This document shows, one piece after another, positions 3,896-52,465 of a stretch of 64,000 bases of DNA. Position 1 is the stretch's first letter, and every line of letters starts with the position of its first letter. The translations under genes and the position numbers were made by a program. The notes under the pieces were generated by a model. That model made no database searches and was not told where the DNA came from. It worked only from the letters and a program-made list of their open reading frames with translations. The stretch is from Sialis fuliginosa (lineage: Eukaryota; Arthropoda; Insecta; Megaloptera; Sialidae). The stretch is from NCBI GenBank assembly GCA_961205875.1, contig OY540814.1, positions 868,001-932,000 on the forward strand, given 5' to 3'.

Positions 3896-4277
3896 TACCT
3901 ACTTTTGGGGAGAAATATCATTTTCATAAAAATTTTCAAAAAAATAAACATATTTTTTTACTTTGATGAGCAATAACTCTGAACTGGAAACACGGCTAGC
4001 AATAACGCTAATACTGAAAAATACGTTAGTTAATTACCTATGAAACTGACTCATTGTGGTTACTCTAGTTACGTTACTTTGGAAGTTATGAGATAAACTT
4101 TGTTTGTAAGTACTACTCTGAAGGAAGTTGTTAAACACCCTGTAGCTCAGAGGGTGTTGAAGATAGACCGCACCTTCCCGTACAATTTTTTACTCACAAT
4201 GAGCCAAGGAATCAGCTCTTAAAATATATGTATCTCAAACCGGACCGCCCTGTATATGAATAACACACACTTAAAAA
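3896..4277. other. AT-rich unannotated DNA
   Basis: Contains the phrase CACCCTGTAGCTCAGAGGGTG at 4136-4156, a short imperfect inverted repeat. Nothing else recognised. Confidence 0.35.
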
Positions 4278-5075
4278 AAAAACTTCTGCCAAGTAAATGC
4301 ACAGTGCTTCCTCGTGCTAAATTCACCAAAGGTAGTTAATTATTCAACAAGTTAAATTAAAACCGAGTATTTATATAAATTGCCAGGAATTGATTAACCA
4401 TTTTTTTATACAATTTTACTAAAAAATATTAGTTCTTTTTTCTTAAAACGCACCTGAATATTTTTTCACATATTTTTAATTTTTTGATAATTTCAATCTA
4501 AATCTAAATTTATGCAAACGTCAAAATGACATTTAAAACGCCAAAATGACATTTAGCATGTCATAGAAAATATCAATTTAAAAAAACAAAATGACGAATT
4601 TTTAAAGCAAAATGAGATACATATTTTTAATATAAATTTTACAACAAACGTTGTAGACCCATATTATAGGAAATTTAATGCTCTACAAAAAATATTTTAT
4701 ACAATTTTCACGTAACATGTGTCGTTCTTGAGATATCTTGAAAAAATTAATATTTTGGGGTGTCACCCCTCCCCCTTACATACGATTTTGATTATTTTGA
4801 AATAGGACCGTCCTCAAGCCAGACCCAACCATCCGACCAAGTTTCAACAATATCGGTTCAATGGTTCATGAGTTATGCGTATGACAAGGATTGAGGAGAC
4901 AGACGGACGGACGGACACACGGACAGACAGACAGACAGACACGGAACGAAAATTGTTTGCATTGACGTGAAACGGATAAATCAATTTAAAATTTAGAAAT
5001 CGGAGAACATTTATTTTGTCCCAATCTGAAACGATCACAAAGCTTCTCGTATCTTCGATATTGCGAGGAAGCAAA
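4278..5075 (+). repeat. Family A repeat, near full-length copy
   Basis: Starts at CTGCCAAGTAAATGCACAGTG and ends at TCGATATTGCGAGGAAGCAA. It carries subterminal inverted motifs TGCTTCCTCG / CGAGGAAGCA, a GTCAAAATGACATTTAAAAC minisatellite, a run of GGACGGACGGAC then CAGACAGACAGACA, and the block CACCCCTCCCCCTTAC. No protein-coding capacity was seen. Class unresolved (MITE-like from the inverted ends). Confidence 0.75.
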
Positions 5076-5591
5076 AGAAACCACCCGTTACATTATCTTT
5101 AAAAACTCCCCGGGCAATAAGACATCAATCATAATAGCCAATGTATTATATTTTATGAAAGTCAGTGTTATAATTTTTAAACCCAAATCATTATTCATAA
5201 AAGCGAACATTATTTATTTGTATGTCGTCAATTGGCTCAAAGCCAACCATAATACTCACTATTTATACTTACAACTGCAAACAAATTGATCTCGTCCATT
5301 ATATAAATCATATTTATTCATTAATGTTGAAGTTTTGATACCTTTGATATAGAACTATTTTAATAACCGTATAGATTTATCCCGAAAACCCGTTAAATTG
5401 CTTTGTAAATAACTCTGTTTTCTCTGTAATACGACGTTAACGTTAATGTACAAACTTAATTTATCATAAATTCAAAATTCACTTTATGTTTATTCGTGTA
5501 ATACATATTATGTATATGGATTTATTTTATTTCTTTTTTTTGAACATTTAAAACTATAAAACTATACATTTTATCCTATGTATAATATAAA
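5076..5591. other. AT-rich unannotated DNA
   Basis: No feature recognised between the family A and family G copies. Confidence 0.4.
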
Positions 5592-9790: not shown

Positions 9791-9817
9791 TTTTATTTCA
9801 CCAATAACTTGGGAAAA

Positions 9818-10618
9818 AAAACATCTGCCAAGTAAATGCACAGTGCTTCCTCGTGCTAAATTCACTAAAACCGATAGTGTTCAGATAAATTGCCTGGCAT
9901 TGGTTAACCATTTAATTTTTATACAAATTTTAATAAAAAATCTTAGTTCGAAATTTTTCTTAAAACGCACCTGAATATTTTTTCATATATTTTTAATTTT
10001 TTGATAATTTCAATCTAAATCTAAATTTATGCAAATGTCAAAATGACATTTAAAACGTCAAAATGACATTTAAAACGTCAAAATGACATTTCATATATCC
10101 AATCAAATATCAATTTAGAAAAACAAAACACGAATTTTTAAAATAAATTGAGATATATCTTTGTAAGGGAATATTTTACAACAAACGTAGTAGACCCATA
10201 TTATAGGAAATTTAATGCTCTACAAAAAATATTCTATAAAATTTTCTCGTAACATGTGTCGTTCTTGAGATATCTTGAAAAAAGAAATATTTTGGGGTAT
10301 CACCCCTCCCCCTTACACACGATTTTGAAATGGGACCGTCCTCAAACCAAACCCAACCATCCGACCAAGTTTCAATAATATCGGTTCAGTGGTTCATGAG
10401 TTATGCGTGTGACAAGGATTCAGGGGACAGACGGACGGACAGACGGACGGACGGACGGACGGACACACGGACAGACAGACAGACACGGAACGAAAAGTGT
10501 TTTTCTTGACGTGAAACGGATAAATCAATTTAAAATTTTGAAATTGGAGAACTTTTTTTTTGTCTCAATCTGAAACGATCACATAGCTTCTCGTATCTTC
10601 GATATTGCGAGGAAGCAA
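9818..10618 (+). repeat. Family A repeat, near full-length copy
   Basis: Same ends as the 4278-5075 copy. It carries three tandem GTCAAAATGACATTTAAAAC units and an expanded GGAC tract (10433-10475), showing copy-to-copy variation in both minisatellites. Confidence 0.75.
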
Positions 10619-10928
10619 TAATTAAAACTTTTTTTATACTCTTTTCAATCGTGAATAACTGGAGTGTGACAACTTTGAGCTAGGGTAAGTTTAACACGCA
10701 TTTTAGATGAGTGGCACATAGATGGCGCACTTATGTATACATTTTCTGCGACACGAAAAAAATTCTCCCTCCCTTCCCATGCTACATAGATATTTTTCAG
10801 TAACAGGATTATATTTCTGAGATGTGTAGTTATGCTGGATAAAATATCCATCCCGTTATCTCAATAAATAAGGAAGATATGCTTAAAAACCTCAAAAAGT
10901 GGCACAAAGTTGGCGCACTTTACGGTAT
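10619..10928. other. Unresolved segment with a 22-bp direct repeat
   Basis: GTGGCACATAGATGGCGCACTT (10711-10732) and GTGGCACAAAGTTGGCGCACTT (10900-10921) are near-identical direct repeats. TAGGGTAAGTTTAACACGC at about 10681 resembles the purine-rich ends of the TA-flanked elements of this window, but no clean partner end was found. Confidence 0.3.
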
Positions 10929-11297
10929 TCCCTTACAAAAATTTATCTTAATTTATTTTTAAAAATCTTGTTTTGTTTTGTCATTTTGACGTTTTAAATG
11001 TCATTTTGACGTTTTAAATGTCATTTTGACGTTTTAAATGTCATTTTGACGTTTTCATAGATTTAGATTGTAATTGTCAAAAAATTAAAAATATACGAAA
11101 AGAATAATCAGGTACGTCTTAAGAAAAATTTCGAACTAATATTTTTTAGTAAAATTGTATAAAAATTAAATGGTTAACCAATTCTAAGCAATTTATCTGA
11201 GCATCGCTTTTTATTTAAATTGTTCATAATAATTAATTATCTTTGGTAAATTTAACACGAGGAAGCACTGTGTATTTACTTAGCAATGTTTTTTTAT
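10929..11297 (-). repeat. Family A repeat, 5' part, minus strand
   Basis: Reverse complement of the first 370 bp of the family, with four GTCATTTTGACGTTTTAAAT-type minisatellite units (10978-11055). The GACA-rich 3' half is absent. Confidence 0.7.
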
Positions 11298-11694
11298 ACA
11301 CAATTTTGTATTTTATTTGATAGATAAATACAGCATTAATTTTATGTTATAATAAGACCAAAATACAACTAATATTGAATTTACTTCAACAGCACATCAA
11401 ATAGACATATTCTATCTATACTAACTCCAATATCAACAAGAGTTTTCATTATGTAAGCAATACGATGAATTGTTTGAGTTTGTCGTGAACACCTCTCTAG
11501 ATAATTCGCGCTAGATGCATTATCAGCGGAGAATAATAATCTGTATCCATTAGTGCGGTTGCAGCAGCCGTTCAATTATTCGCCACTTGAGCTGTCGACC
11601 GGCCAAGACGAATCGCGTCCGGTCATAATTCATATCCGTACTGGAACTGCACATTTCTTACACGGACAAAAATTCTGTTGATTTTTTAATAAAA
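11298..11694. other. Unannotated DNA
   Basis: A slightly less AT-rich patch at 11500-11640 (GCAGCAGCCGTTCAATTATT) shows no ORF continuing through it. No feature assigned. Confidence 0.35.
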
Positions 11695-12320
11695 AAAACA
11701 TCTGCCAAGTAAATGCACAGTGCTTCCTCGTGCTTAATTCACCAAAGGTAGTTAATTATTCAACAATTTAAATAAAATCCGATTGTGTTTATATAAATTG
11801 CCTGGAATTGGTTAACCATTTAATTTTTATACAATTTTACTAAAAAATATTAGTTCGAAATTTTTCTTAAAACGCACCTGAATATTTTTTCATATACATA
11901 TTTTTAATTTTTTGGAAATTTCAATCTAAATCTTTTATGCAAATGTCAAAATGACATTTAATAGGTATATCCAAGCGTCGTTCTTGAGATATCTTGAAAA
12001 CAAAAATAAATATTTTGGGGTATCACCCCTCCCCCTTACATACGATTTGATGAAATGGGACCGTCCTCAAGCCAGACCCAACCATCCGATCAAGTATAAA
12101 TAATATCGGTTCAGTGGTTCATGAGTTATGCCTGTGACAAGGATTCAGGGGACAGACGGACGGACGGACGGACGGAAAGACAGACAGACACGAAACGAAA
12201 AGTGTTTGCGTTGACGTGAAACGGATAAATCAATTTAAAATTTTGAAATCGGACATTTTTTTTGTTTCAATCTGAAACGATCACAAAACTTCTCGTATCT
12301 TCGATATTGCGAGGAAGCAA
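11695..12320 (+). repeat. Family A repeat with internal deletion
   Basis: Both ends are intact, but about 170 bp between the minisatellite and the CGTTCTTGAGATATCTTGAA block is missing relative to 9818-10618. Confidence 0.7.
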
Positions 12321-12812
12321 AAATATCCGTATGGAGAACCATACATGACTTCCATGTTCTTTCTATCTTTTTAAATATTTTATTTATATAACCTACTAAT
12401 ATGAATATACATAAATATCGTAATACATAAAAAAAACATATATATTTACGACGGTTATAGCAGTTATTGCCATTTGTATATAAATATAATCTAATGTCCT
12501 AATGTCAAAAACATAATACACATTCGTAGAACAACTAATTTGACAATTTGAATTTAGTTGCATTTGTTTCCAAGGCAGCATGAATTAGTGACGAATTAAT
12601 TAGTATTTAAAATATAAATTTTGAGGGTGGTTTCCACCCCTTCAATAGCTGTTTAGATACGTACAAATAATAAATGTCCTTTAAGTTCAATTGAACTACA
12701 AATGTACCAAGTCTTATCAAAATTAGTGAGATAATACTCGCAACGTTCACTTTTTAGACGATAAAAGTTACAAAATTTCGAATATTTCCAAAACCCCTAA
12801 TCCGATTAGCCC
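12321..12812 (+). repeat. Family C repeat
   Basis: Begins TATCCGTATGGAGAACCATA like 13861 and runs to CCAAAACCCCTAATCCGATT. The GAACATGGAAGT end is missing because the copy joins family N. The ORF at 12396-12581 on the minus strand is a chance frame. Confidence 0.7.
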
Positions 12813-22585: not shown

Positions 22586-23119
22586 AAGGTGGCAGCCCCA
22601 GTTACATATAAACTTTTCTACAATTTCATAATCTCTAAACCAACCTAAAACATAAATTATTCTAATCCCCGAAACTAACCCAACGAAAGATACTAAAACA
22701 TGTATAAATCAAAATAATACGGTCCAAAGCTTAACTCGATTGTGTACGGCAACATCTTAAATTCATTAACGTCAAGCGCCAAAGACAGCTCTTCAAATGC
22801 AAAAAGCAAACTCCTGATATTAATTTACATATGAATCGTGCGCCAAGTGTCGCCCATTTGTTGCCGTCTTGCGTGTAATATCTACCTGCCTGATTTAATT
22901 TGGAACAATGCGATATGATACATGTTGAGAATTAACTACACAAACCAACACACTGACAACTTATTATGTGTGAATTGTTTCAAATGTATTATTACATGTC
23001 TGCATATGTATGAGATGATACACAGGGTGGTCCATTTAACCACAATTTGACCATCCCATATATCTTACCAGCTTTTAGAGTTATGAGAAAATTGTCGAGA
23101 TGCAATTTATAATCCAGTA
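22586..23119. other. Unannotated DNA
   Basis: CACAGGGTGGTCCATTTAACC at 23021 resembles the end of a transposon, but no partner was found. The stretch at 22740-22930 has more even composition than its neighbours and is not seen elsewhere in the window. Confidence 0.35.
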
Positions 23120-23296
23120 GGGGAGAAGTGGGAGAGTTCATCCTCTGGGAGACTTGATCACCCATAGATATTTTGACAACAATAGTATTTGAAACCTTTA
23201 TGTTAGCAACAATACGTAGCAGTCTTATTAAGACAACGTCAGGAACTATTATATAGTGTTTTTCATAAGCTCACATTGGTACGTAACCATTAAAAA

Positions 23297-24098
23297 ACAT
23301 CTGCCAAGTAAATGCACAGTGCTTCCTCGTGCTTAATTCACTAAAACCGATTGTGTTCAGATAAATTGCCTGGCATTGGTTAACCATTTAATTTTTATAT
23401 AAATTTTACTAAAAAATCTTAGTTCGAATTTTTTCTTAAAACGCACCTGAATATTTTTTCATATATTTTTAATTTTTTGACAATTTCAATCTAAATCTAA
23501 ATTTATGCAAATGTCAAAATGACATTTAAAACGTCAAAGTGACATTTAAAACGCCAAAGTGACATTTAAAACGTCAAAATGACACTTAATATATCCAATC
23601 AAATATCAATTTAGAAAAACAAAACACGAATTTTTAAAATTAATTTAGATAAATCTTTGTAAGGGAATATTTTACAACAAACGTAGTAGACCCATATTAT
23701 AGGAAATTTAATTCTCTATAAAAAATATTCTATAAAATTTTCTCGTAACATGTGTCGTTCTTGAGATATCTTGAAAAAAGAAATATTTTGGGGTGTCACC
23801 CCTCCCCCTTACACACGATTTTGATGATTTTGAAATGGGACCGTCCTCAAACCAAACCCAACCATCCGACCAAGTTTCAATAATATCGGTTCAGTGGTTC
23901 ATGAGTTATGCGTGTGACAAGGATTCAGGGGACAGACGGACGGACGGACGGACAGACAGACAGACACGGAACGAAAAGTGTTTGTCTTGACGTGAAATGG
24001 ATAAATAAATTTAAAATTTTGAAATTGGAGAACTTTTTTTTTGTCTCAATCTGAAACGATCACATAGCTTCTCGTATCTTCGATATTGCGAGGAAGCA
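23297..24098 (+). repeat. Family A repeat nested in the pogo-like transposon
   Basis: Near full-length copy with four GTCAAAATGACATTTAAAAC-type units. Pogo-derived sequence lies on both sides, so this copy inserted after the pogo-like element. The ORF at 23793-23990 reads through the GGAC/CAGA tract and is a chance frame. Confidence 0.75.
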
Positions 24099-24402
24099 AA
24101 AATTGCGCAATCAAACATTTATTACAGTTTTAAGTGCAATATGTGTGTTAATCTATTACGACGTAAGTACGTTATATTTTTTAAATTTGTTTTAGCATGA
24201 AGTCTCCAAAAATAAGTCACTGATAGCGAATATCAAGGTTCCTTAAAGATTTTGTAATAATCTCAAAAATAAACTGCAAAGTAGATATGGGGATACTTGA
24301 TCCCCTTTAGTCGGGGAGATTTGATCCCGGGAATCAATGTAGTTAAAGTTATGAATATACATATGTATAGTTTAGTAAGTAGGTACTATTTGTCTACAGG
24401 GC

Positions 24403-24606
24403 ATGCCGCGGAATTATAAAAGGAAGTGTGGAGCTAAAGTGAGACCAGCAATAGATAGCGAGAAGCTAGAAGAAGCAGTTATATCTGTAATAAAAGATAA
24501 TACATCTTTTAAGGGTACCGCTAAAAGATTTGGTTTGAATGTAATGACTTTAAAAAGATATGTTAGGTCAAGCTTGTCCAACCCGCGGCCCTCGAGCATA
24601 ATTTAA
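24403..24606 (+). pseudogene. N-terminal Psq-HTH fragment of a pogo-like transposase
   Basis: The 67-residue frame starts MPRNYKRKCGAKVRPAID and continues through LEEAVISVIKDNTSFKGTA and KRFGLNVMTLKRYV. This fits the helix-turn-helix of the Psq/CENP-B-like DNA-binding domain (roughly residues 15-55): alternating Ala/Val/Leu core positions, a TAKRFGL turn and a TLKRY recognition helix. In pogo-superfamily transposases this domain sits at the N terminus and binds the transposon ends. The last residues (after YVR, from 24569) come from an inserted hAT-like element. Beyond its target duplication the original frame resumes at 25775 as VRSQKANADTISYK and ends at 25868-25870. No DDE catalytic domain is present. 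The ATG at 24403 is chosen because the PRNYKRK start is usual for these proteins. A domesticated host gene is unlikely given the flanking inverted repeats. Confidence 0.75.
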
Positions 24607-25773
24607 AAAAAATTATGCCAATAAATGTACATAGAAAATAATATCTACGACTAAAAAAAAAAAAAAAAGGTTTTCTCAATCGAATTCTCTATTTTATATT
24701 ATATTTATAATAAAATTAGGAATTGAAATTAACGCGACAAGAAAAAAAAAAAAAAAAGGTCCTCAGTTTTATATTATAACTAGAGATGAAACGGATATCC
24801 GGTAACTATTCGGTATCCGGCCTATCCGGCCTTATTTTGTTATCCGGCTGAAAACCGGATAGTAACGAATTATCCGGCCGGATACCGGATAATTAAATAC
24901 TACAATTTTTTATTTAAAAACTGCAAAAAAAAAAAATATTTGTGACGCAAATAATACAAAATTGACTTGTAGTCTAGTAATTTTAGATATGAATTTATTC
25001 AATCTGCGAAAAAATAGCAGTTAGCTGATTTTTTGTATACACCTTCGTTACGGTGTAAAGTATGACTATATATTCGCATACGGTATGACGCACTCTATGA
25101 GATTTGACTATTAGCATATGACTATTTGCACGTGAAAAAATTACAGGACAAAAATTAAAGACTAGACAATTCTCTATAAGGTGTGCAATCCGGATATATT
25201 AAAAAATCATTTTTAATCAATTTTAATCACATTTAGTAGAACTACACACATAGCGATTTATGAAAAATTACCATTCCTGTCCAATTTTGTGTTCAAAATC
25301 TCTACCTAAGCTTTTGCAAAGTTATATAATGGTTCTACTAAAATAAATAAGCTTTGGACATATTGAGTAGAAAAGAGAGATAATTGTGTTAAATTGACCT
25401 GTATATAACAATAGCCCTACGTCAAAAATTAAAAATTGGAAAAAAATTATTTAATTATAAAATGCACCCTGTTTAAAGTTTTATGTGTACTTATGTTATA
25501 GGTATGACTAAACACTAAAATTATAAATGTTTATAGGCTACAAACATGTTTTTCATATATTTTTTGCTAAAAAAACGTATATTTGGCCGCCGGATATTCG
25601 GCCGCCGGATATCCGGCCATCCGGCCTTACAGCTCGCCGGATATTCGGTATTCGATATCCGGCCAAAACACTATCCGTTTCATCTCTAATTATAACCTGC
25701 GGCCCTTAGTAAACCAAATTGAATAAAATTTTTGCTATGCGGCCCGGAAGGTTCAAAAGGTTGGACACCTATG
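24569..25773. mobile_element. hAT-like MITE inserted in the transposase frame
   Basis: Flanked by a perfect 8-bp duplication TGTTAGGT (24561-24568 and 25774-25781). Ends are CAAGCTTGTCCAACC and GGTTGGACACCTATG, with CCCGCGGCCC / GCGGCCCGGAAG just inside, as in many hAT elements. Removing the second nested element leaves about 289 bp. Confidence 0.85.
24781..25688. mobile_element. Second hAT-like element nested in the first
   Basis: Starts TAGAGATGAAACGGATA and ends ATCCGTTTCATCTCTA, with a perfect 8-bp duplication ATTATAAC (24773-24780 and 25689-25696). Subterminal clusters of CCGGATATCCGG-like repeats lie at both ends (24795-24890 and 25580-25665); such repeats serve as transposase-binding sites in known hAT elements. 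908 bp. The ORF at 25527-25709 is a chance frame through the repeats. Confidence 0.85.
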
Positions 25774-26111
25774 TGTTAGGTCACAGAAAGCAAATGCAGA
25801 TACTATTTCATACAAAATAAATAATTGTAGGATATTTGTTCACCCAAGAATTGTCTCCCAAACTCTGTGATCAAGTCTCCCATAACCGGGGAGACTTGAT
25901 TACTTTTCCCTGGTCTGTGTTTTTCTTGAAAATTTTAGATCCAGTAAAAGATATATAAAAAAGTTCACGAGAATTTAAAGAACAAGTAAATACACGAAAT
26001 ATTTAACATAAGACGATTTTTTTTCACAAACTATTAAATAAGTTATAGGCTCAAACATAAAATAGGGATCAAGTCACCCACTTCTCCCATACATTTAGAC
26101 AAAAAATAGAT

Positions 26112-26779
26112 GTGTCTGGGGAAAAATTCGCAATGAACTGAATTTTTGTATACACCTTCATTTCTATTTTCAATTTTTAATCTTTCGCTATCTATACAAT
26201 AAAAAAAATGTTTTTGACTCAATTCTGCTAACGGTGGTAATAACATGTGTACTGAAGGTATATACACAGCAAATTTGAAGTCAATCAGTTCAGTAGATCT
26301 TGTGATATTATGGCAGCCATTTTCAGTTTTCAGTTTCGAGAAAAACGCGTTCAAAGTTTATTCAATGCTACGCATCATCTTCAAATCACTGTAACTCCGT
26401 CAATTTTTGGAATTGAGGTATAGGGTTTTGAACACATATTTTTGAAACCCTGTTTATTGATAAAATGCAAAAAAAATTTGATATTTTCACATTTTTAGAC
26501 TAGAATACCCTCTTAATAAGCGAAAACGATTACTTGTACGAAAAAAGTTGTAAGGTCTTTATTATAGGTAATTTTCTAAACTTTATATTTGATAATAACT
26601 ATTTTAGTCATAGAACCAATACTAACAGAGATATTTACTTAAAACTAATTGTAAGCACCTTTTGTGGGCTGTAAAAAAGTATGCTCGCATGGGATTGTTG
26701 CGAACTTTTGGTACTTTATTTATAAAGACAAAATAAAGGTGTATACAAAAATTCAGCTCATTGCGAATTTTTCCCCAGT
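26112..26779. repeat. Inverted repeat pair around an AT-rich core
   Basis: CTGGGGAAAAATTCGCAATG (26117-26136), followed by AATTTTTGTATACACCTTCA, is mirrored at about 26730-26779 (AAGGTGTATACAAAAATTCA ... GCGAATTTTTCCCCAG). Arms are about 48 bp. Minus-strand ORFs at 26043-26354 and 26622-26945 overlap the arms and have no recognisable domain. Confidence 0.55.
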
Positions 26780-27242
26780 GAAAATCTAATGTTCCTGGAC
26801 TATTAGTCCTCGACCCCGGCTTTAAATTTTGAAATAAAAAATACTCCTCTGAAACTTCTTGAGTGGATTCATTTTGGCGTAACCTACAATTTTTTATCTT
26901 CGAAAATTCTGAGAATTGAAGCGTTTTTGATGTTGTGTGCGTCAAACATGTTTAGGGCGTAGGTCAGGGTAAAAGACCCTTGATTTTTGTAGGCCAGTAT
27001 AACCATAACATTTTACTATTATTTATCTAGTAATTGTGCAAAAATCAACCGGTTATTTATAAATTACATAAGACCATGAATTTGACATGTTGAGAGTGTA
27101 GGTCTCGCTAAATGCCCCAATATTTTTGTAGGTCAATATATTTCCCGATTTTTGCATTATAAAATCTTGTAATTCAAATAAAAAAAGAAAGGGTTATTCG
27201 TAAATTTCCTATAACTATCGTTAAATTCACATGTTTGACGCA

Positions 27243-27409
27243 TGAGTTGAGTGACGGACACACAGACAGACAGACACGGAACGAAAAGTGTTTGTCTTGA
27301 CGTGAAACGGAAAGATCAATTTAAAATTTTGAAATCGGAGAACATTTTTTTTGTCTCAATCTGAAACGATCACAAAGCTTCTCGTATCTTCGATATTGCG
27401 AGGCAGCAA
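27243..27409 (+). repeat. Family A, 3' fragment
   Basis: From the GGACACACAGACAGACAGAC tract to TCGATATTGCGAGGCAGCAA. It lies tail-to-tail with the following minus copy, separated by about 30 bp. Confidence 0.65.
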
Positions 27410-27439
27410 TAGTTTATGAAAAATTTTGAAATAAGACTT

Positions 27440-27862
27440 TTGCTTCCTCGCAATATCGAAGATACGAGAAGCTATGTGATCGTTTCAGATTGAGACAAAA
27501 AAAATGTTCTCCGATTTCAAAATTTTAAATTGATTTATCGGTTTCACGTCAACACAAACACTTTCGTCCCATGTCTGTTCGTCCGTCCGTCTGTCCCCTG
27601 AATCCTTATCACACGCGTAACTCATGAACCATTGAATCGATATTATTGAAACTTGGTTGGATGGTTGGCTTGAGGACGGTCCCATTTCAAAATCATCAAA
27701 ATCGTATGTAAGAAGGAGTGGTGACACCCCAAAATATTTAACCAATTCCAGGCAATTTATATAAACACTATCGGTTTTTATTTAAATTGTTGAATAATTA
27801 ACTACCTTTGGTGAATTTAGTACGAGGAAGCACTGTGTATTTACTTGGCAGATGTTTTTTTA
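27440..27862 (-). repeat. Family A, minus copy with internal deletion
   Basis: Both ends present (TGCTTCCTCGCAATATCGAA at the left, CACTGTGTATTTACTTGGCA at the right), with the middle including the GTCAAAATGAC minisatellite lost. The ORF at 27485-27745 is a chance frame. Confidence 0.7.
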
Positions 27863-40130: not shown

Positions 40131-40572
40131 TTTTGCTTCCTCGCAATATCGAAGATACGAGATTTCAAGATATCTCAAGAACAACGTGAAAATTTTATAG
40201 AATATTTGTTGTAGAGCATTAAATTTCCTATAATATGGGTCTACAACGTTTGTTGTAAAATATTCCATTACAAAGATTTATCTCAAGTTATTTTAAAAAT
40301 TTGTTTTTCTAAATTGATATTTACTTGACCATATTAAATGTCATTTTGACGTTTGTATAAATTTAGATTTAGATTCAAATTGTCAAAAAATTAAAAATAT
40401 ACGAAAAAATAATCAGGTGCGTCATAAGAAAAATTTCGAACTAACATTTTTTAGTAAAATTTGTATAAAAATAAAATGGTTAACCAATGCCAGGCAATTT
40501 ATCTTAACACTATCGGTTTTGATGAATTTAGCACGAGGAAGCACTGTGCATTTACTTGGCTGATGTTTTTTC
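40131..40572 (-). repeat. Family A, minus copy with internal deletion
   Basis: Starts TTGCTTCCTCGCAATATCGA, then jumps to TTTCAAGATATCTCAAGAAC, having lost the GACA-rich part. It ends at GTGCATTTACTTGGCTGATG. Confidence 0.7.
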
Positions 40573-50763: not shown

Positions 50764-51272
50764 AATAAATAAAATATTGAACTTTGACACAGTCTTGGGA
50801 CAGCCTGTATAACAAACGAATTTTCCCAGACGCACGTACAAATTTAAATCCAGCATGAAATGAAATGAAAAAGCAGATAACAATAGAATCTTTTCGTCAA
50901 TATCGACAATTGCGACTTACGACGCTAACTAGGGCTCCAATGTACGCGCCTCCACCACACCAAACACACAGCAAACGAGAGAGTGGCTGTTACGAGCCAC
51001 TAGTAATGATACGAATCTCGTACAACAGGTGGCGGCATTTATCTGTGTCTCCCGGAATACAATTCTATATACATATAAAACTTTTGGACTTTTCCTCGCA
51101 ATTGACTCCATCGGAGTGTTTATTTTTTATCATCCACGTTAACAAGCGTACTCTCTTCGCTACGTAAACTACACAAACTTTTCTTGAGCAATGTGTATTT
51201 GAACTAATTTAAAACGTTGATTTTATAAACCAAGTGGGAGAATCCGGATTTGCTATAGCATGATTTATTTAT
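50764..51272. other. Unannotated DNA of mixed composition
   Basis: ORFs overlap on both strands at 50865-51167. No domain recognised. CACCACACCAAACACACAGC lies at 50952. Confidence 0.35.
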
Positions 51273-52094
51273 TTTGCTTCCTCGCAATATCGAAGATACG
51301 AGAAGCTTTGTGATGGTTATTTTTTTCGTTTCGGTTTTCGTTCCGGTTCGAGCAAAAAAATGTATTTCGGTTCGGTTCCGGTTTTCGTTCCGCAAAAAAT
51401 AACGGTTTTTCCGGTTTTCGGTTCAGCTCCGAGTGATTAATTAAAAAAAAAATTATTTGTATCAAAAAAAAATGTTCTACCATAATTGAGAATATTTTAT
51501 GGTACTTGTATAATAGTCCGAACGACAATTGAAGTGGGAAATAAGATCATGTTAACGCGCGTATTTTAACATGTACTGAACCGTAAAAACCGATATTTTT
51601 ATTTCGGTTCTGTTCCGGTTTTCATTCCGGCAAAAAATAACGGTTTTTCCGGTTTTCGGTTCAGTTCCGGTTCGAAGCCCTGAAAAAAAGTGTGATTTCA
51701 AAATTTAAATTGATCTTTCCGTTTCAGTAGAGCATTAAATTTCCTATGATTTTACAATGTTTGTTGTAAAATATTCCCTTACAAAGATTTATTTTAAAAA
51801 TTCGTGTTATGTTTTTCTAAATTGATATTTGCTTGGATATATTAAATGTCATTTTGACGTTTTAAAAGTCATTTTGACGTCTGCATTTTAGACTTATATT
51901 GAAATTGTCAAAAAATTTAAAAAATACGAAAAAATAATCAGGTGCATCGTAAGAAAAATTTTAAACTAATATTTTTTTTAAATTGTATAAAAATTAAATG
52001 GTAGGTAATTAATCTGAACACTTTATCGGGTTTAATTTAAATTGTTGAATAATTAACTAACTTTGATGAATGCATTTGCTTAGCAGATGTTTTT
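51273..52094 (-). repeat. Family A, minus copy interrupted by a CGGTTC-rich segment
   Basis: The end TTGCTTCCTCGCAATATCGA is separated from the body (from about 51685) by 51316-51680, which is packed with CGGTTTTCGGTTC words and ends TTCCGGTTCGAAGCCCTG. The inverse of that end, CAGGGCTTCGAACC, is of hAT type. The opposite end was not identified. The minus ORFs at 51204 and 51265 are repeat translations. Confidence 0.6.
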
Positions 52095-52290
52095 TTAAAT
52101 TGATATTTACTTTGATATATTAAATGTCATTTAAACATGTTAAAATTTAGATTTAGATTAAAATTGTCATTAAATTAAAAATATACGAAAAAATAATCAG
52201 GTGCGTTTTATGAAAAATTTCGAACTAATATTTTTTAGTAAAATTGTATAAAAATTAAATGGTTAACTAATGCTAGGCAATTTATTTAAA
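52095..52290 (-). repeat. Family A, partial minus copy in tandem
   Basis: Second partial copy in the same orientation, covering the AAAATAATCAGGTGCGTTTT and AAATGGTTAACTAATGC blocks. Confidence 0.6.
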
Positions 52291-52465
52291 CACATGAAGA
52301 AGAACAGTTGGTTAGCTTGTTGACGGATCGTACTGTAAAATTAAAATGTTCTGAACTGGCTCTTGAGAAATTTTGAATATTTGTCCAAGTACCTAATTCT
52401 TTCCACAAAAGCACTTACAATTTTTGGTACAGTTTATGATTCTTTAAACTATACGGTAAGGTAAA

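Follow-up and report, generated by a model that had tools for sequence, protein, structure and literature searches.

A readable nest of five non-autonomous transposable elements in the genome of Sialis fuliginosa

The window analysed here, the whole stretch of 64,000 nucleotides, lies on contig C6 of the Sialis fuliginosa assembly (392 Mb in 20 contigs, the longest of up to 47 Mb). Between positions 23110 and 26802, it holds a stack of five non-autonomous elements. A previous sequence-only reading of the window had described four nested elements, namely a pogo-like transposon, a copy of a repeat termed family A, and two hAT-like elements. These four are all present, and the layers number five, since the outermost one, a foldback element (F), had been missed. 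The features of the nest, with coordinates checked letter by letter, are as follows.

23110 to 23119, plus strand: left end of F, TAATCCAG plus the TA entered by the pogo-like element; other copies read TAGTCCAGTA
23120 to 26089, plus strand: pogo-like non-autonomous element with terminal inverted repeat GGGGAGAAGNGGGNGACTTGATC, flanked by TA at 23118-23119 and 26090-26091
23292 to 24101, minus strand: HINE-like copy of family A within an A-run of the pogo-like element, with no clear target-site duplication
24403 to 24570, plus strand: truncated Psq helix-turn-helix (HTH) frame belonging to the pogo-like element and interrupted by hAT-1; the HTH_psq match is on an uninterrupted paralogue
24569 to 25773, plus strand: hAT-1, a hAT-like MITE, with the 8-bp duplication TGTTAGGT at 24561-24568 and 25774-25781
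24781 to 25688, plus strand: hAT-2, hAT-like, with the 8-bp duplication ATTATAAC at 24773-24780 and 25689-25696
26092 to 26802, plus strand: remainder of F in a one-arm form, ending in CTGGAC-TA

All junctions that had been described as readable, that is, the flanking TA and the two 8-bp duplications, were found at these positions. Both perfect duplications coincide with element ends common to other copies, and a given pair of flanking 8-mers would match perfectly by chance with a probability of approximately 1.5e-5 (4^-8, with equal base use). Empty paralogues exist for each of the four insertions: F without the pogo-like element, the pogo-like element without family A, the same element without hAT-1, and hAT-1 without hAT-2. 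One copy has thus entered another in four instances, pogo into F, family A into pogo, hAT-1 into pogo, and hAT-2 into hAT-1.

F belongs to a high-copy, TA-flanked foldback family (747 candidates, of which 40 were scored) whose arm pieces are 82-97% identical. As judged by eye among the 40 of 747 candidates scored, most listed places have two inverted arms, and the one-arm form recurs outside the window at five listed places (C13:1128262, C1:31473654, C7:109921, C3:1690696, and C12:12686525). In all ten other F left ends that were fetched, TAGTCCAGTACATTTAGAC runs uninterrupted across the insertion TA; these ends read TAGTCCAG-TA-CATTTAGAC, all ten having one TA at the empty site, and the window reads TAATCCAG-TA-(pogo)-TA-CATTTAGAC. 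Because the left ends are intact elsewhere and split in the window, the pogo-like element is nested inside F, and the single TA of the empty site confirms its TA duplication. The point of entry lies 6-8 bases inside the F end, a range that reflects the two possible assignments of the first TA, to F itself or to the target of F; the far end of F, CTGGAC-TA, is at 26802. In a search that skipped very common words, the 518 bases to the left of the pogo-like element yielded a sole match, 77% identical over 91 bases. This 91-base stretch (23018-23108) has its one relative on contig C5, stopping near the left F junction, and no continuation of that relative past F was found; the stretch may represent a still older, sixth element to the left of F. 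A separate observation is that hAT-2 (25030-25046) and F (26143-26159) have an exact 17-mer, TTTTTGTATACACCTTC, in common, with no other likeness noted.

Members of the pogo/Tigger group of Tc1/mariner transposons are characterized by a TA duplication, terminal inverted repeats, and a Psq-type HTH. The window element shares all three features, the last as a frame, and differs in being internally deleted: at approximately 0.95 kb without its inserts, it is too small for a full transposase. Searches with two body pieces returned six places each, the window and five others. The same six copies contain all 11 genome-wide matches to the pogo ends at two mismatches or fewer (reversed control, 0) and all seven matches to the Psq peptide. 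TA is present on both sides in the window copy and in four of the five others, L011 being without one end. Pairwise K2P distances among the six range from 0.023 to 0.036, and seven sites of shared difference were counted in columns with letters in all six copies, as a short burst would be expected to leave. When aligned to the window copy minus its inserts, all five other copies are without family A, and four carry a single TGTTAGGT, the fifth (L014) being deleted there. The search for uninterrupted pogo copies, proposed in the sequence-only reading, thus recovered five without either insert, which upholds the further claim that family A lies independently inside the pogo-like element.

The assignment of a Psq-HTH frame, also made in that reading, holds narrowly on the uninterrupted paralogue L012 (HTH_psq, 21.1 bits, E 2.5e-4, against a cut-off of 20.4), and the window fragment alone, at 18.7 bits, falls below the cut-off. 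Of the other five copies, two have an open frame, L011 and L013 have a shift or a stop in it, and the deletion in L014 interrupts it. The family keeps a predicted Psq DNA-binding frame and no catalytic domain. No autonomous pogo element with DDE_1 and the same ends was detected at 30 of the 100 listed DDE_1 matches, each examined with 1.5 kb on each side, and neither the ends nor the peptide revealed a further copy. Within these 30 places, nothing matched the Psq peptide, and three matches of 28-52 bases turned up, the best of which covers 28 AT-rich bases (E 2.6e-4). On these grounds, the pogo-like family appears to comprise six copies, with no autonomous one detected. It is quite unlikely that the family encoded a short Psq DNA-binding peptide repressing its own source, the frame of which hAT-1 would have destroyed in this copy. 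With respect to the DDE_1 matches themselves, 34 of the 100 listed lie, by eye, on C14, which accounts for 16.8 of the 392 Mb; C14 may be a repeat-rich or a sex chromosome.

The family A copy, read on the minus strand, is TTTTGCTTCCTCG...CGAGGAAGCACTGTGC...GATGTTTTTT, with T-rich ends, an internal GTCC/GTCT microsatellite, and a sub-terminal inverted repeat, TGCTTCCTCG, that is exact over 10 bp at positions 4-13 and 773-782 of 810. In one account of HINE/DINE-1 elements, families are classified by a sub-terminal inverted repeat of at least 11 (PMC4067079). Family A matches the HINEs described there in the 3-nt spacing between this repeat and the 5' end, as well as in its T-rich insertion sites, variable terminal Ts, and internal microsatellite. 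A palindrome near the 3' end, GCACTGTGC, was recognized by eye; folding of the last 60 bases gave the terminus a different and longer pairing and did not confirm a 3' stem-loop. Family A departs from that description in two respects, its exact repeat of 10 bp being one short of 11, and its distance from the 3' end being 28 nt rather than the 38-60 nt given for the mite families (PMC4067079). Taken together, these sequence features indicate that family A resembles HINEs, i.e., non-autonomous Helentrons. An autonomous Helentron with family A ends was absent at the one place read among 30 Helitron_like_N places.

Family A is abundant (2401 first-look candidates, of which 40 were scored), and the full-length ones are 98-100% identical. 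A shared target duplication is absent by eye in 10 of 10 flanked copies, although an all-A duplication could hide in the A-run; the terminal A count varies among these ten copies, and the target in all five empty pogo copies is a run of A8-A10. Because there is no clear target-site duplication, the family A insertion is demonstrated only via the empty paralogues. Other copies or fragments in the window, at 4277-5076, 9816-10618, 10926-12322, 27253-27860, 40131-40571, and 51272-52294, are approximately 73-96% identical to the nested copy across stretches longer than 40 bases, and an inverted pair occurs at 27.2-27.9 kb. Family A has probably had several waves.

Elements of the hAT superfamily generate target-site duplications of 8 bp. 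Without its insert, hAT-1 is 289 bp long. Its search gave 601 candidates elsewhere, 40 of which were scored and 29 relatives cut out, the nearest being 96.0% identical. Both end patterns, together with flanking 8-mers agreeing at 6 or more bases, were found in 16 of these 29 (perfect in 10 of the 16), and in 11 of the 16, TCTA occupies duplication positions 2-5 on at least one side, as judged by eye. The window duplication, TGTTAGGT, fits this TCTA target preference only in its central TA. Neither exact end of hAT-2 was found in any of the 29 loci; eight of them, including L029, read exactly ATTATAAC once at the insertion point, the rest having a diverged stretch there. Uninterrupted hAT-1 relatives, the second kind of paralogue proposed as a check, therefore exist.

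The inner element, hAT-2, is 908 bp long and bounded by a perfect 17-bp terminal inverted repeat, TAGAGATGAAACGGATA; 764 candidates were found elsewhere, of which 40 were scored. Perfect 8-bp duplications flank 8 of 8 copies (the window copy and seven cut out with flanks), and seven different duplications occur among the eight, L005 and L007 both having CTTTAAAT as their target. The L002 copy, on C9, matches the window hAT-2 at every one of its 908 bp and is flanked by a duplication of its own, ATATCGAC. Identity at a separate site with a separate duplication points to very recent movement of this hAT-2 sequence. Eight listed hAT-2 places have an extra ~200-220 bases between hAT-2 positions 276 and 277; the young form may have arisen from these by deletion, or the other copies may hold an insert. 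With short length, no evident coding capacity, terminal inverted repeats, and 8-bp duplications, hAT-1 and hAT-2 are comparable in form to hAT MITEs such as Mar of Drosophila (PMC3517528).

The combined evidence makes it very probable that the nest consists of five non-autonomous DNA transposon copies that became nested via ordinary transposition. Pogo entered a TA near the left end of the foldback element F, a HINE-like copy of family A entered an A-run of pogo, hAT-1 entered its Psq frame, making an 8-bp duplication, and hAT-2 entered hAT-1, making the second. In the history proposed here, these insertions would have taken place in situ, with F present first, pogo next, then hAT-1 and family A in either order, and hAT-2 later than hAT-1. 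The transposases were presumably supplied in trans by full-length relatives of the Tc1/mariner-pogo, hAT, and Helentron types. The order advanced in the sequence-only reading, pogo, then hAT-1, then hAT-2, is confirmed as containment by the empty paralogues of each insertion. Containment proves who entered whom and not that every step occurred at this site; an element already carrying its insert could have relocated whole, so nesting alone does not give the in-situ order.

Substitutions private to the window copies offer a second view of the order, with the provisos that they depend on the relatives chosen (best hits) and date the divergence from sister copies instead of the insertion. The counts are 13/575 for F (2.3%), 9/883 for pogo (1.0%), 1/782 for family A (0.13%), and 0/856 for hAT-2 (0%), the zero arising because this copy is identical to L002; the distance of the window hAT-2 to six other copies is 1.9-2.3%. 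For hAT-1, a different rule was used, comparison with L022 and three outgroups, which placed 2/246 (0.8%) on the window side and 4 on the L022 side, with 1 unresolved. In two-sided Fisher tests, neighbouring steps gave p=0.077 (F-pogo), p=1.0 (pogo-hAT-1), p=0.14 (hAT-1-A), and p=0.050 (hAT-1-hAT-2), and wider steps gave p=0.004 (pogo-hAT-2), p=0.023 (pogo-A), and p=0.0001 (F-A). The order of private substitutions agrees with the nesting, only the wider comparisons being significant and the neighbouring ones mostly not; family A and hAT-1 are not separated by this measure (p=0.14).

Partial assembly of the nest elsewhere, with a hAT-2-loaded hAT-1 moving into pogo or a loaded pogo into F, is the alternative that survives best, and it is unlikely. 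The junction duplications look alike under both histories, and hAT elements, as cut-and-paste movers, may leave no donor. However, when the whole block was searched, no match besides the window among the best 40 of 4852 candidates crossed a junction by more than ~20 bases, and the 29 hAT-1 loci are all without exact hAT-2 ends. Block movement further requires a 289-bp MITE enlarged to 1.2 kb to have stayed mobile, which is possible and less simple. The absence of loaded copies among the best-scored candidates favours insertion in situ.

An assembly artefact joining repeats would have to explain exact duplications at three insertions and why F and pogo each resume exactly on the far side of their inserts, in an assembly whose 20 contigs reach 47 Mb; it is extremely unlikely, even though the components are repeats and the nest is known from assembled sequence alone. 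In favour of a single composite family holding all inner segments, some components lie close together elsewhere: family A lies beside hAT-1-type ends on C2, and hAT-2 has pieces of family A within 1 kb on C1 and C3. The C2 place, the one that was read, holds an A copy beside a separate ~0.7-kb hAT-1-type element that has a different inner sequence, flanks of its own (GTCTAGCC/GTCTAGCT), and no hAT-2 ends, so the nest block is not repeated there; close pairs of this kind are expected of abundant families. A composite family, the outcome named in the sequence-only reading as refuting nesting, was sought, and none of the scored candidates showed it; its probability is negligible: each component is found apart from the others, bounded by its own ends and flanks (hAT-2 and family A among them, as that reading had suggested checking), and the empty pogo (5 of 5 other copies) and hAT-1 paralogues lead to its rejection for the copies examined.

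What lies in the window is a tidy yet ordinary case of transposon nesting, the product of ordinary biology. The use of nested elements for chronology is already established; in TinT, the directional insertion of one element into another gives relative order (Churakov et al., 2010; PMC3014933). The principle is the same as for the present nest, and TinT differs in using frequencies over many nests to order the activity of families, whereas a single nest orders single events (PMC3014933). The suggestion that this stacking would date four families gives way to a narrower result, the ordering of five insertion events with no family dating. New relative to the sequence-only reading are the fifth layer F, the HINE-like nature of family A with no clear target-site duplication, and the six-copy pogo family. 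The nest alters no concept of transposon biology; it provides a fully readable five-element insertion record and a worked example of defragmentation. It also illustrates how identity-based ages mislead: the nearest hAT-1 relative found (96.0% identical) is at least as distant as pogo copies are from one another, yet hAT-1 lies inside pogo.
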